Below, in pieces: positions 23,081-28,000 of a stretch of 28,000 nucleotides of DNA (within the stretch, counting starts at the first letter, position 1; each line of letters begins with the position of its first letter). The position numbers and the translations under genes are program-made. Below the pieces are notes generated by a model, which had not been told where the DNA came from, did not search any database, and saw only the letters and a list, made by a program, of their open reading frames with translations. Location of the stretch: positions 1 through 28,000 of the IMG/VR virus record IMGVR_UViG_3300006868_000079; one strand, written 5' to 3'. The DNA comes from a virus.

Positions 23081-23620
23081 GTGTGGAAACCTGCCGACAA
23101 CCTGAAGTGGCAGTCGGATGCTTTGTGCTCCAAACCCCAATTTCGTGAGAACCGAGAATGGTTCTTCTCGAAAGAAGCCAACGAGCGCACAGAAGCGAAA
23201 AACTTGTGCTACTCGTGCCCAGTTCGAGCTCAGTGTCTGCAGTGGGCGCTAGAGCATCGACAAATTTGGGGCATCTGGGGCGGCAAGGATGAAGTCGAAA
23301 TCCGCAGAGCTCTCTCCGTGTCTTACAAAGGGGAGGAAACTAGAAGGCGTAGATTCCCTCACTGTCCCTATTGCAGTGCTCGTCCCTCTAAGTTAGAAAC
23401 CAGTACTCAAGAACTTTCTGGTGGTGGTCGTTGGACTACCGCCAAGATTGTGACTTGCACCGTATGCCACTTCTCATGGCGTAGCAGGACCAGTGTCAAC
23501 GCTGTCCATGCCTACCAGCTTGACCGCCAGCAGAGAGAAGAGAAGAAGCAGAAAGAGCGTGACCGCAAAGCCCGAATAAGGGCCAAGGAAAAGGCCCGAG
23601 CTAAGAAAACTAAGAAGTAA
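23081..23620 (+). CDS. WhiB-like protein fused to a zinc ribbon and basic tail
   Basis: A 179-residue protein. Residues 1-78 form a WhiB domain with C16, C43, C46 and C52 and the IWGIWGG turn (62-68). Unlike ordinary Wbl proteins of about 80-120 residues, it continues with a likely zinc ribbon (C95/C98 and C126/C129; HCPYC, then TCTVCHFSW) and a Lys/Arg-rich tail (about residues 150-179) suited to nucleic-acid binding. Start GTG at 23081 has no Shine-Dalgarno; TACTAT at 23066-23071 fits a -10 for a nearly leaderless mRNA. It is the last plus-strand gene and overlaps the convergent glycosyltransferase gene by 11 bases. Confidence 0.85.
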   Translation: MWKPADNLKWQSDALCSKPQFRENREWFFSKEANERTEAKNLCYSCPVRAQCLQWALEHRQIWGIWGGKDEVEIRRALSVSYKGEETRRRRFPHCPYCSARPSKLETSTQELSGGGRWTTAKIVTCTVCHFSWRSRTSVNAVHAYQLDRQQREEKKQKERDRKARIRAKEKARAKKTKK

Positions 23621-24683
23621 TACTAGCTCCGGCTGCCTTTTCGCAGAAAACTAGGTTGCTCTGCATTCGTTCGTTGTCTGGCTCAAGTTCTACGGCGTTA
23701 CGAGCGTACTCGGCGGCCTTTTCGTACTCTCCAAGGTTGTACGCAGCGATTGCAGCGTAGTCCCACGGTGCTGCACCCCATGATTCAGCCTCGCAAAGGT
23801 ATTCCAAAGGCTTTTCTTTAATCTCCAAGGCGCTCTCGGCTGCGTCTAGACACTGACGCCATTCCTGACGACCGTAGTAGAGCTTTGCAAGGTCAACAAA
23901 AGGCTCCCTACGACCGGGGGCTTCGTCAACAGCCTTTCTAAACCAATGCTCTGCCTCGGCGGGCAGGGACTTACCAATAAACCGCATTGAGGCAGCACGC
24001 TCTGGCTTCCAATGGGCTGTAGGTAGTTCCAAGTGCCTCTTCAGCTCTGCTGCTGCTTCCATGTACTGACCGTAGAAGTAGAGCTCACGACCGTAATAGA
24101 AAGCGTTGCGGTCGTTGTAGGGGTCTTCCTTAACCGAAAGCGCAAGAAGCGGCAAGTACTGAGACCTGCTCTTAGTGTTGTCGGGGTGGTGATGGGTCTC
24201 TAGACCGTCAATCCAACCCTGCATCTCTTCAATGCCATATGAGTAGATGCACTCATGTACCGGATGCCGCCAACGGAAGCCTTTACGAGCATGAATGTGG
24301 TCGTAAGAAAATTCAAGCCCGGGCGTGCCATCTTCGTTCCACGACCAAATGTGCTTGTAACGAGGGCGGTTGATGCCCTTCTCCCAAGCTTCTTCTAGAA
24401 CCTGTTTCCATCCGGGAGTGATGACTTCATCCATGTCAAGGGACACGCACATGTCGATGTCGAGAGGAAGTGCAGCGAGCGCCGCATTGCGTGCGTCGTC
24501 AAATCGCCAAGGACTAACCCGCACATCGACAACATTGATACCCAACTCACGAGCCTTCTCCACCGTCCCGTCTGTAGACCCAGTGTCAGCAATTAGCAGG
24601 TAATCCGCATCCTTTGCTGACTCGTACCAACGCTCAACAAACTGTAACTCGTTGAGTGCGATTGTGTAGATAGCAGCTTTCAT
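23610..24683 (-). CDS. GT2 glycosyltransferase with C-terminal TPR-like repeats
   Basis: Minus-strand gene, 357 residues. The N-terminal GT-A domain carries LIADTGSTDGTVEKA, a short nucleotide-binding motif, and the DxD-type SLDMDEVITPGW that holds the metal and nucleotide sugar. From about residue 180 the sequence becomes helical repeats, including ALELKEKPLEYL-like and GEYEKAAEYARNAVELEPDN, of tetratricopeptide type. Such GT2-TPR proteins are common in phages and bacteria that decorate proteins or polysaccharides. Of the two adjacent ATGs, 24683 has the better spacing to AGGAG. It is last in the minus-strand unit, 11-15 bases below the halogenase stop. The acceptor is unknown. Confidence 0.85.
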   Translation of the reverse strand: MKAAIYTIALNELQFVERWYESAKDADYLLIADTGSTDGTVEKARELGINVVDVRVSPWRFDDARNAALAALPLDIDMCVSLDMDEVITPGWKQVLEEAWEKGINRPRYKHIWSWNEDGTPGLEFSYDHIHARKGFRWRHPVHECIYSYGIEEMQGWIDGLETHHHPDNTKSRSQYLPLLALSVKEDPYNDRNAFYYGRELYFYGQYMEAAAELKRHLELPTAHWKPERAASMRFIGKSLPAEAEHWFRKAVDEAPGRREPFVDLAKLYYGRQEWRQCLDAAESALEIKEKPLEYLCEAESWGAAPWDYAAIAAYNLGEYEKAAEYARNAVELEPDNERMQSNLVFCEKAAGASITS

Positions 24684-24697
24684 CATTGTCTCCTATA

Positions 24698-26857: not shown

Positions 26858-26910
26858 ATTTCTCTCCATCTGCAGTGGCAAGACCACTATAACAGTTGGC
26901 GGAGAGAAAT
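26858..26910 (-). promoter_or_regulatory. inverted repeat covering the methyltransferase ribosome site
   Basis: The 10-base arms 26858-26867 and 26901-26910 are perfectly complementary. On the minus strand the downstream arm is GGAGAGAAAT, the methyltransferase Shine-Dalgarno. A second small stem (AGTGG/CCACT, 26874-26888) lies inside. A read-through mRNA from the collagen gene could fold to hide the ribosome site, while an mRNA starting at the local promoter would lack the upstream arm. Confidence 0.5.
26886..26894 (-). promoter_or_regulatory. candidate extended -10 promoter of the tailoring genes
   Basis: Minus-strand TGT TATAGT is a TGN extended -10, about 30 bases before the methyltransferase ATG. 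The predicted start lies near 26880. No -35 is obvious. Confidence 0.4.
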
Positions 26911-26913
26911 GGG

Positions 26914-28000
26914 CTAAATAGCGCTAAGAGCCTTGTGAACTAGGTTCCCGACCATGGTAGCGGTATGAATGCTGCATTGGTATCGGTAGCCGTTTGTGGC
27001 AGCAGTTACCGGAACATTCCAATAAACCGTACCTGAGGTCTGCTCCTGAGCGTTGACATCCACGTTCACGGTTCCGTCTGTGTCAACGTGGATTAGGCCA
27101 CTAGAGATGTTGGCGAACCCAGAACCAGTGTCTTCCTGAATCCTGAAGGGGTGGCTAGTAAGACCACTCAATTTAAAGGCGATTGTGGCCCCACCAAGGA
27201 CATAAACGTCTGGGTTGTCTCCGCTGTAGTGACTGTTGAATTGATACCCATTAGTACCGTTAGGTGTCACGACGAGCTGAGCAATCGCAGGAAGAGCAGC
27301 TTCGTCATAGCCCTTGTTAGCGTTTGTAACCTCATCCAGACCCGTAAAAGTGGTAGTTCCTGCAGGACCTGCGGGGCCAGTGGGACCAGTCGGACCCGTA
27401 GGACCGTCTGCACCTGTGGGGCCAGTAACAGTCGAGTCCGCACCTTGAGCGCCTGTCGCACCCGTAGGACCCGTTGGTCCAGTAGGTCCTTCTGGTCCTG
27501 TTGGACCATCAGACGGTCCGGTGGGACCTGTCGCACCCGTAGGACCCGTTGGTCCACCAGATGGGCCTGTAGGTCCTGTAGCCCCGGTGGGGCCTAGGAT
27601 TGAACCAATGCTGAGGAACTGAGAAGTGGTTGTGTCCCAGACGTACAGTTCGCCGTCCGCTTCTACAACGTAAGCGTCTCCAGCGACACCGCTACCGGGC
27701 AAATCCCCTGTTGTGGCAACTTCTCCCTTGAGGTTTACGGCAGTGCCATCTTCACCCTGAGGCCCGGTGGGACCAGTAGGTCCGTCAGCCCCTGTCGGAC
27801 CCGCAGGTCCTGTGTCGCCTAGGGGACCTGTAGGACCGTCTGCGCCCGTGGGGCCTGTAGGCCCTGTTGGCCCCGTCGGACCACCACTTGGACCGGTGGG
27901 CCCAGTCTCTCCAATGGGACCAGTCGGACCAGTGACCGAGGGACCAGTCGGTCCCGTCGGCCCTAGGTCACCAATGGCAACAGCTTCCCAAGCGCTTGTA
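26914..28000 (-). CDS. collagen-like fibre with cupredoxin-like C-terminal domain (N-terminus off window)
   Basis: The minus frame is open to the right edge, so the gene is partial; a TTG at 27702 in mid-frame is not a start. From the edge: a short non-collagen piece, a Gly-X-Y block (many GPTG), a spacer of about 50 residues ([15 protein letters not shown], then [16 protein letters not shown]), a second Gly-X-Y block, then a globular end of about 135 residues. The end has SHPF and [14 protein letters not shown], which match the His and the Cys-x2-His-x3-Met ligands of a type 1 copper site in a cupredoxin fold. The protein is probably a trimeric virion or surface fibre. Copper binding is inferred and untested. 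Confidence 0.85.
27452..27556 (-). repeat. exact 30-bp direct repeat in the collagen-coding region
   Basis: Bases 27452-27481 recur exactly at 27527-27556, 75 bases (25 codons) apart and in frame. The unit encodes Gly-X-Y triplets. Such copies can gain or lose triplets by recombination or slippage, changing fibre length. Confidence 0.7.

Follow-up and report, generated by a model that had tools for sequence, protein, structure and literature searches.

A minus-strand cassette that closes a run of fibre genes

The stretch of DNA analysed here, called the window, comprises the 28,000 nucleotides at positions 1 to 28,000 of the virus record IMGVR_UViG_3300006868_000079, and our subject is a group of minus-strand genes at its end, which encode a collagen-like fibre protein (COLA), a methyltransferase (MT), a halogenase (HAL) and a two-domain glycosyltransferase (GT2-TPR, or GT2). 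The original prediction, made from the letters alone, had named four open reading frames (ORFs) of these kinds, and all four were found at the positions it gave (Table 1), with their families confirmed by Pfam (Collagen, E = 4.9e-15; Methyltransf_24, 3.3e-14; Trp_halogenase, 1.6e-106; Glycos_transf_2, 6.6e-8, plus TPR). The cassette is real and conserved, and it follows a series of fibre genes. It is apparently undescribed, in that the open-access literature searched held neither a description of it nor a paper joining a halogenase, a phage collagen fibre and glycosylation.

Table 1. Cassette genes, their domains and the bordering gene in the window.
Feature	Position	Strand	Basis
Collagen-like fibre protein with C-terminal cupredoxin-like domain (COLA)	26914..28000	-	Pfam Collagen; PHROG tail fibre matches; full-length relatives
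Cupredoxin-like domain, 128 residues	26917..27300	-	Type-1 copper ligands His50, Cys109, His112 and Met116 all present
MT, class I S-adenosylmethionine (SAM) methyltransferase (Methyltransf_24; O-methyltransferase-like)	26281..26856	-	Pfam
HAL, flavin-dependent halogenase	24698..26278	-	Pfam Trp_halogenase, PDB matches, motifs; ORF from TTG 26302
GT2-TPR, whole gene	23610..24686	-	
GT2-TPR: GT-A domain (residues ~1-170)	24177..24686	-	Pfam Glycos_transf_2, model, structure matches
GT2-TPR: C-terminal TPR domain (residues ~171-358)	23610..24176	-	Pfam TPR, model
Convergent WhiB-family gene, conserved far border of the cassette	23081..23620	+	Pfam Whib 6e-17

The window end truncates COLA at its 5' end; when whole, the protein has 371 amino acids (aa), as in contig L003 (L003:8274-9389), which encodes the same four proteins with 100% identity over the compared parts. 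The gaps in the window are small, with 57 bases between the fibre gene and MT, 11 between HAL and GT2, and 2 between MT and HAL, or a 22-base overlap if the HAL ORF is taken from its TTG (24698-26302). The ATG at 26278 lies 2 bases past the MT stop codon and, since L007 and L008 likewise have an ATG just past the MT stop, it is the likelier start. Compared with L005, the ratio of nonsynonymous to synonymous substitution rates (dN/dS) was 0.032 for GT2, 0.043 for HAL and 0.039 for MT, values that are rough at a dS of 1.0 to 1.7; against L007, L008 and L091, dS was saturated in six of nine comparisons and the other three gave 0.018 to 0.091. From the ratios of 0.03-0.04, the three enzyme genes are under purifying selection.

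Contig L003 reveals what lies upstream. The genes there share a strand, no two neighbours being more than 74 bases apart, and come in this order: a virion protein with 1367 aa or more (the most upstream gene visible, its own start cut off; PHROG 5838, 4.4e-137), a 362-aa fibre protein, a subtilisin-like protease (Pfam Peptidase_S8; L003:5207-6772), a 475-aa collagen-like protein, COLA, MT, HAL and GT2. With these fibre genes upstream, the cassette forms the 3'-terminal part of a longer run. The compact unit of four genes that had been proposed thus holds as to its small gaps but not as to its number of genes, because in L003 the unit runs on into further fibre genes. The candidate promoter suggested for the enzymes had to be given up: the fibre-MT gap of L003 contained no promoter-like site, and the region held 10 sites against 7.3 expected. 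The fibre genes and the enzymes look like one operon, presumably read as a single transcript.

The subtilisin-like protease inside the run could process fibre proteins; L065, L071 and L140-L144 have relatives of it (54-62%) with the same surroundings. The fibre-gene run may also hold YHYH-domain proteins with a cupredoxin-like stretch, as in L065:2844-4217 and L019:9004-10374.

Conservation of the cassette and its two halogenase types

Scans of viral contigs returned 66 loci for GT2, 52 for MT, 17 for HAL and 22 for a second halogenase type (HALb), and the loci near a GT2, merged by contig, gave 75 distinct contigs. Co-occurrence in relatives had been set beforehand as a test of the prediction, and the test was passed: MT, GT2 and the convergent WhiB gene, the last within four genes beyond GT2, are all visible in 62 of the 75 contigs, and in 53 of these 62 a collagen or homologous fibre gene lies at most eight genes upstream; a halogenase is found in 34 of the 62. 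In the other 13, the contig end cuts the locus off, the genes are inverted (L076 and L077) or no MT is visible (L079 and L082); in L079, GT2 lies between two collagen genes. The conserved order is MT-(HAL)-GT2-(HAL), convergent with WhiB, such that a halogenase may stand between MT and GT2 (HALa) or after GT2 (HALb). As the halogenase is optional and occurs in either slot, we regard MT-GT2 as the core and HAL as accessory.

The HALb scan placed GT2 directly upstream in 21 of 22 loci, the 22nd contig beginning inside the halogenase. Among the 17 HAL loci, seven have the full order, one (L009) has the HAL-GT2-WhiB part, and nine (L010-L018) are without a GT2 neighbour. Collagen was within 6 kb of GT2 in 42 of the 42 GT2-scan loci with at least 4 kb visible upstream (52 of all 66), which we take to be mostly synteny among relatives. 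In the cultivated Actinomycetia phage DSL-LC01, from lake water, the order is collagen, collagen, YHYH/cupredoxin protein, HAL, GT2 and WhiB; judging from this record and from the WhiB genes, the window phage is probably an actinobacterial phage.

The GT2 scan gave 55 complete contigs, which show what else the slots contain. A halogenase is present in 29 (8 in the MT-GT2 slot, 21 in the GT2-WhiB slot) and a PHROG 7084-like protein in 4, and 23 have no insert; among ORFs of at least 150 aa, the limit of this census, only halogenases and PHROG 7084-like proteins lie on the cassette strand, and a 190-aa ORF in the slot region of L065 is on the opposite strand and overlaps WhiB. These counts bear on the idea that the 3' end of the fibre-gene run is a landing site for cargo, where MT, HAL and GT2 would share no substrate. 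Fibre regions are indeed variable: a genomic island of Planktophila phages, one of two, overlaps the tail fibre in part and takes in two collagen-like genes (PMC10202952). In some contigs, ORFs below 150 aa also lie in the slots, and at least seven changes of halogenase status are needed on a GT2 tree of 47 rows. However, the larger cargo is not diverse, and GT2 and MT remain together in L076 and L077, where they are inverted relative to the fibres and still adjoin them. We therefore consider a landing site improbable.

The two halogenase types appear to have entered the cassette separately. In a 65-row halogenase tree, which took 22 of 115 distinct bacterial halogenase ORFs, HALa groups with HTVC008M, L010-L014 and DSL-LC01, and HALb with cyanophage and alphaproteobacterial halogenases. 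A 55-row version, built as trees of the 'quick' type, had 11 rows removed (5 long branches and 6 near copies, with the bacterial subsample changed accordingly), although two long rows, L197 and DSL-LC01, remained; here, forcing both cassette types together cost 97 log-likelihood units (approximately unbiased test, p-AU 0.00018), and the same constraint with DSL-LC01 added gave a p-AU of 6e-5. A single origin was thus rejected and, HALa and HALb being separate clades, a halogenase must have joined the cassette at least twice. The separate recruitments, together with the repeated changes in halogenase status, argue that the enzyme is useful beside these genes and not merely inherited.

PHROG 7084 ('U247') was also considered as a dedicated halogenase partner and dropped, as in the best 80 of 581 relatives from a wide scan a halogenase was at most four genes away in only 2 loci and collagen was found in 13. 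Its members stand directly beside a halogenase in L010-L012, L071, L323 and L324; the family is broad and its link to the halogenase is weak. A search for PDB relatives gave one unconvincing match (E 1.3). Proteins of this kind are abundant in viral contigs (L236-L315), where a run of 180-290 aa genes often includes at least two of them.

The fibre as candidate substrate of the enzymes

COLA is predicted to be a collagen-like tail fibre from its Gly-X-Y repeats (PF01391), its PHROG tail-fibre matches and the adjoining virion protein. Its C-terminal domain is cupredoxin-like, with the full type-1 ligand set, and may bind copper. With hhalign, this part matched plastocyanin at 52% probability, while 25 controls (of 32 candidates) reached at most 1%. 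Of 27 relatives picked by similarity alone, 26 have all four ligands, and the 27th is without the segment that holds the first His; among those under 60% identity the count is 16 of 17. This recount, made without a motif filter, replaced an earlier set of apparently invariant ligands that was circular, since its rows had been selected by the copper motif. The domain model (predicted local distance difference test, pLDDT, 94.8) resembles laccases, amicyanin and plastocyanin in fold (E about 1e-3), and the PDB matches listed for it belong to the cupredoxins and the multicopper oxidases. Related domains occur in cyanophage proteins of seven records, mostly annotated as baseplate/tail-pin or tail-fibre connector and in one case as 'hypothetical'; with these annotations, a tail location of the fibre fits.

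GT2-TPR begins with a GT-A domain, which contains a DMDE motif, and ends in a C-terminal TPR arm. SunS and ThuS took Foldseek ranks 1-6 for its AlphaFold model (pLDDT 84.6; predicted template-modelling score, pTM, 0.62), with E-values down to 1.9e-13 over 281 to 384 columns. VIA-align paired 254 to 305 residues with SunS/ThuS at a root-mean-square deviation (rmsd) of 5 to 10.6, two of the structures giving 297-305 residues, Z 16.1-16.2 and an rmsd of about 10, and rows matching one GT2 domain alone scored equally high. From the high rmsd, the angle between the domains either differs or is badly predicted. The model has the GT-A domain and TPR-like arm of the SunS/ThuS type over full length. 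The sequence of the GT domain also matched GmaR (8.5e-4), which we take to be a flagellin glycosyltransferase; the whole protein matched PHROG 13126, 'beta-1,4-glycosyltransferase' (1.2e-119), and tblastn found relatives in the phages PaBG and Lu11. SunS and ThuS glycosylate ribosomal peptides, the glycocins (PMC12457901; PDB entry titles). The Peptidase_C39 (PF03412) of glycocin loci was found in none of 14 records, mostly fragments, with the control positive in 8 of 14 genomes; for lack of this peptidase transporter, GT2 is described here as built like a glycocin enzyme and not assigned as one.

Two further sugar-related observations were made. L319:844-2430 encodes a 528-aa fusion of a second glycosyltransferase domain with GT2-TPR, on a contig that also has a 1101-aa GPT-rich collagen. 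On the plus strand of the window, a 346-aa protein (20004-21044) without a Pfam or PHROG match at E 0.01 has relatives in the corresponding stretch beyond WhiB in the cassette loci printed in full, and a 28% relative in DSL-LC01 at or near a gene annotated as glycosyltransferase; it is possibly a second phage sugar enzyme.

MT is by sequence a class I enzyme of the Methyltransf_24/O-methyltransferase type, with structure-sequence searches returning mainly general O-methyltransferases; a sugar and a protein are both possible targets.

The window HAL, judged by its sequence, is an intact flavin-dependent halogenase of variant A (PF04820) with its catalytic motifs kept. Its best PDB match was 6frl (7e-66), which is BrvH (PMC8407142), and RebH, PrnA and VirX1 (PDB 6qgm, 2.6e-49) matched too. 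According to the same source, GxGxxG is the flavin-binding motif of these enzymes, and variants or absence of WxWxIP occur. Among distinct sequences of at least 380 aa, GxGxxG is present in all 6 cassette HALa and all 21 HALb; WxWxIP is present in the window HAL and in all 6 HALa but only 4 of the 21 HALb, the other HALb in the alignment reading WxWRT. Numbered from the TTG, Lys86 is invariant across 15 aligned halogenases and Glu368 nearly so, with Asp in DSL-LC01; we take them to be the equivalents of PrnA Lys79 and Glu346, the catalytic lysine and glutamate. Three cassette phages have a second halogenase, 43-45% identical to the window HAL (L323:6848-9120, L324:7054-9323 and L011:9270-11539), which adjoins a PHROG 7084-like protein away from the cassette.

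The composition of the collagens also bears on the substrate. Gly-Pro-Thr (GPT) makes up a median of 33% of the triplets in 83 cassette collagens, with Thr at the third position in 56% overall, and 0% in 21 of 24 other phage collagens, a comparison that is uncontrolled in that the cassette collagens are mutual relatives and the others were gathered in the searches for PHROG 7084 and halogenases, with L124 added from the MT scan. L124 accounts for two of the three exceptions, and its contig also encodes a GT2 relative; the third is L305. In the distant relative L322, a Pfam Glyco_transf_25 gene (1.8e-10) stands between a collagen with 28% GPT and GT2.

It was suggested in the original prediction that the enzymes jointly decorate the phage fibre or a host surface product recognised by it. 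The part of this that gained support is the action of GT2 on the fibre, for which the SunS/ThuS-like build, the GPT-rich fibres and the GT25-family gene of L322 speak; the Trp and Tyr content of the fibres showed no relation to HAL. On sequence and model, glycosylation of the fibre is the best-supported predicted function, with good support, and better supported than fibre halogenation, for which the support is circumstantial.

We infer the fibre as substrate, the residues modified and the purpose as follows. The phage would make GPT-rich collagen-like fibres, some ending in a cupredoxin domain or accompanied by carbohydrate-binding proteins, and would make the decorating enzymes from the same strand. 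The TPR arm of GT2 would hold the fibre chain while a sugar from a host nucleotide-sugar is added, probably on the Thr of Gly-Pro-Thr, and MT would O-methylate that sugar or the fibre. HAL, with reduced flavin and halide supplied by the cell, would halogenate Trp or Tyr side chains in the non-collagen parts. The resulting coat would alter protease stability or receptor contact. That the enzyme genes close a virion-fibre operon of actinobacterial phages and decorate the phages' own fibres is the reading we prefer, though at no better than even odds; the complete line, in which the fibres are glycosylated, methylated and halogenated, is possible but held more tentatively.

The enzymes might instead remodel the host surface, for superinfection exclusion or receptor masking, and leave the virion alone. 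GT2 enzymes often build surface glycans, and a cell-wall role or protection of phage DNA has been proposed for Planktophila phage glycosyltransferases (PMC10202952). However, the GT-A plus TPR build has its full-length structural matches among peptide glycosyltransferases, the enzyme genes stand closely behind fibre genes on one strand, and it is hard to see what a halogenase would do in the making of glycans, such that we find remodelling of the host surface very improbable.

Several results weigh against decoration of the fibre, or of its halogenation in particular. Many of the 62 contigs are close relatives (65 GT2 rows reduce to 47 distinct ones), so their conserved order is largely inheritance; collagen genes are also numerous in these phages, ORFs of 1579-2116 aa elsewhere among them, so that a nearby collagen is partly expected. 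L305 has a collagen with 21% GPT and no GT2 in its 24.8-kb fragment, and around the GT2 relatives of PaBG and Lu11 no collagen, MT or halogenase was seen within about 6 kb. No flavin reductase (PF01613) that could serve as a partner of HAL was over the cut-off in 14 records, most of them fragments; such a reductase need not sit in the halogenase cluster (PMC12615548). The DSL-LC01 halogenase (L019:10433-12004) is without the GAGEG stretch, WxWxIP and the catalytic glutamate, yet holds the cassette position; it may be inactive, decaying or repurposed, and as a query it found no relatives in a viral-contig scan. Fibre Trp density was the same with and without HAL (12.35 vs 11.95 per 1000, p=0.83; 16 vs 12 sets), and Tyr tended to be lower in the HAL-positive sets (p=0.06), so that the 28 fibre sets showed no enrichment of either with HAL. 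Halogenases outside this group are often away from collagen, as in P-SSM2, whose halogenase is about 150 kb along the record from the collagens over the Pfam cut-off and about 44 kb from a sub-threshold match. Of eight T4-like genomes tested, seven gave no Pfam collagen; in three of these eight records (S-SRM01, S-CREM1 and syn9) a Gly-X-Y count places the halogenase near collagen where Pfam finds none. A general rule of phage halogenases beside collagen was dropped, since P-SSM2, Syn1, S-PM2, S-H38 and HTVC008M do not show it.

Alternatively, GT2 and MT may decorate the fibre while HAL acts elsewhere, for example on free tryptophan, indole or another host metabolite, and only travels with the late fibre genes. 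The unchanged Trp content fits such a split, as do the optional nature of HAL (29 of 55), the absence of collagen in the 5-8 kb seen on each side of the five halogenases just named and the occurrence of a second halogenase outside the cassette in G007, G020 and G021. The arrival of two halogenase clades in two slots of one cassette is, however, unexpected for a random passenger, and no small-molecule biosynthesis gene is among the identified cassette genes. We regard an action of HAL elsewhere as rather unlikely.

Comparison with known systems

Taken singly, the elements are not new: halogenases of phages, collagen fibres and the glycosylation of viral collagen have all been described. To our knowledge no phage halogenase has a known natural substrate, VirX1 included, although its structure has been solved. 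The addition of two halogenase clades to one fibre/glycosyltransferase unit would offer a concrete and testable one, the adjoining fibre. If halogenation of the fibre is true, we know of no earlier case of a halogenase acting on a virion protein, and the purpose of at least some phage halogenases would be explained. Halogenation would then join virion-protein chemistry, with halogenases possibly accepting folded or repetitive proteins, and the chemistry of fibres would be a layer of the interplay between phage and host.

Halogenases are found in 20 of 153 cyanophage genomes (PMC10452541), and prnA entries were already in early cyanophage genome comparisons (PMC3037559). VirX1 of cyanophage Syn10 is, like HAL, a phage-encoded flavin-dependent halogenase of the Trp_halogenase family, with a large open active site and a preference for iodide (PMC8407142); the window HAL is closer in sequence to 6frl than to VirX1, and the syn9 and S-CREM1 halogenases fall in another part of the tree, syn9 and Syn10 giving an equal search score. 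MibH and SrpI, of pathways for ribosomally synthesized and post-translationally modified peptides, are flavin-dependent halogenases that place halogen on Trp residues of such peptides, a reaction like the one proposed here, but they act on short precursor peptides, SrpI requiring a leader (PMC12615548), whereas the proposed substrate in the window is a fibre protein.

SunS and ThuS (PDB 7msn, 7msk and 7msp) share with GT2 the order of a GT-A domain and a TPR-like arm over full length, and SunS is SPbeta prophage-derived by its PDB molecule name; identity is only about 15%, and GT2 has fibre genes as neighbours and not the Peptidase_C39 of glycocin loci. The PHROG 13126 proteins of the large phages PaBG and Lu11 are relatives of GT2 that differ in the neighbourhood described above.

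Virion proteins of mycobacteriophages are known to be glycosylated. In the bacterial collagens of the BclA type, the glycan attaches to the Thr of GPT triplets, and we know of no halogenase associated with them. They offer an analogy only, a collagen-like protein with a glycan ending in a methylated sugar (PMC6222408), and are spore-surface proteins, unlike a phage fibre. A viral precedent is Mimivirus L230, an enzyme that glycosylates and hydroxylates a collagen-like protein of the virus and whose glycosylating domain resembles the human collagen galactosyltransferase GLT25D1 (PMC9614988). The window GT2 belongs to another family than this GLT25D1-like/lysyl-hydroxylase fusion, which acts on Lys. 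The L230 domain and GLT25D1 are of the GT25 family, as is the gene that lies between collagen and GT2 in L322.

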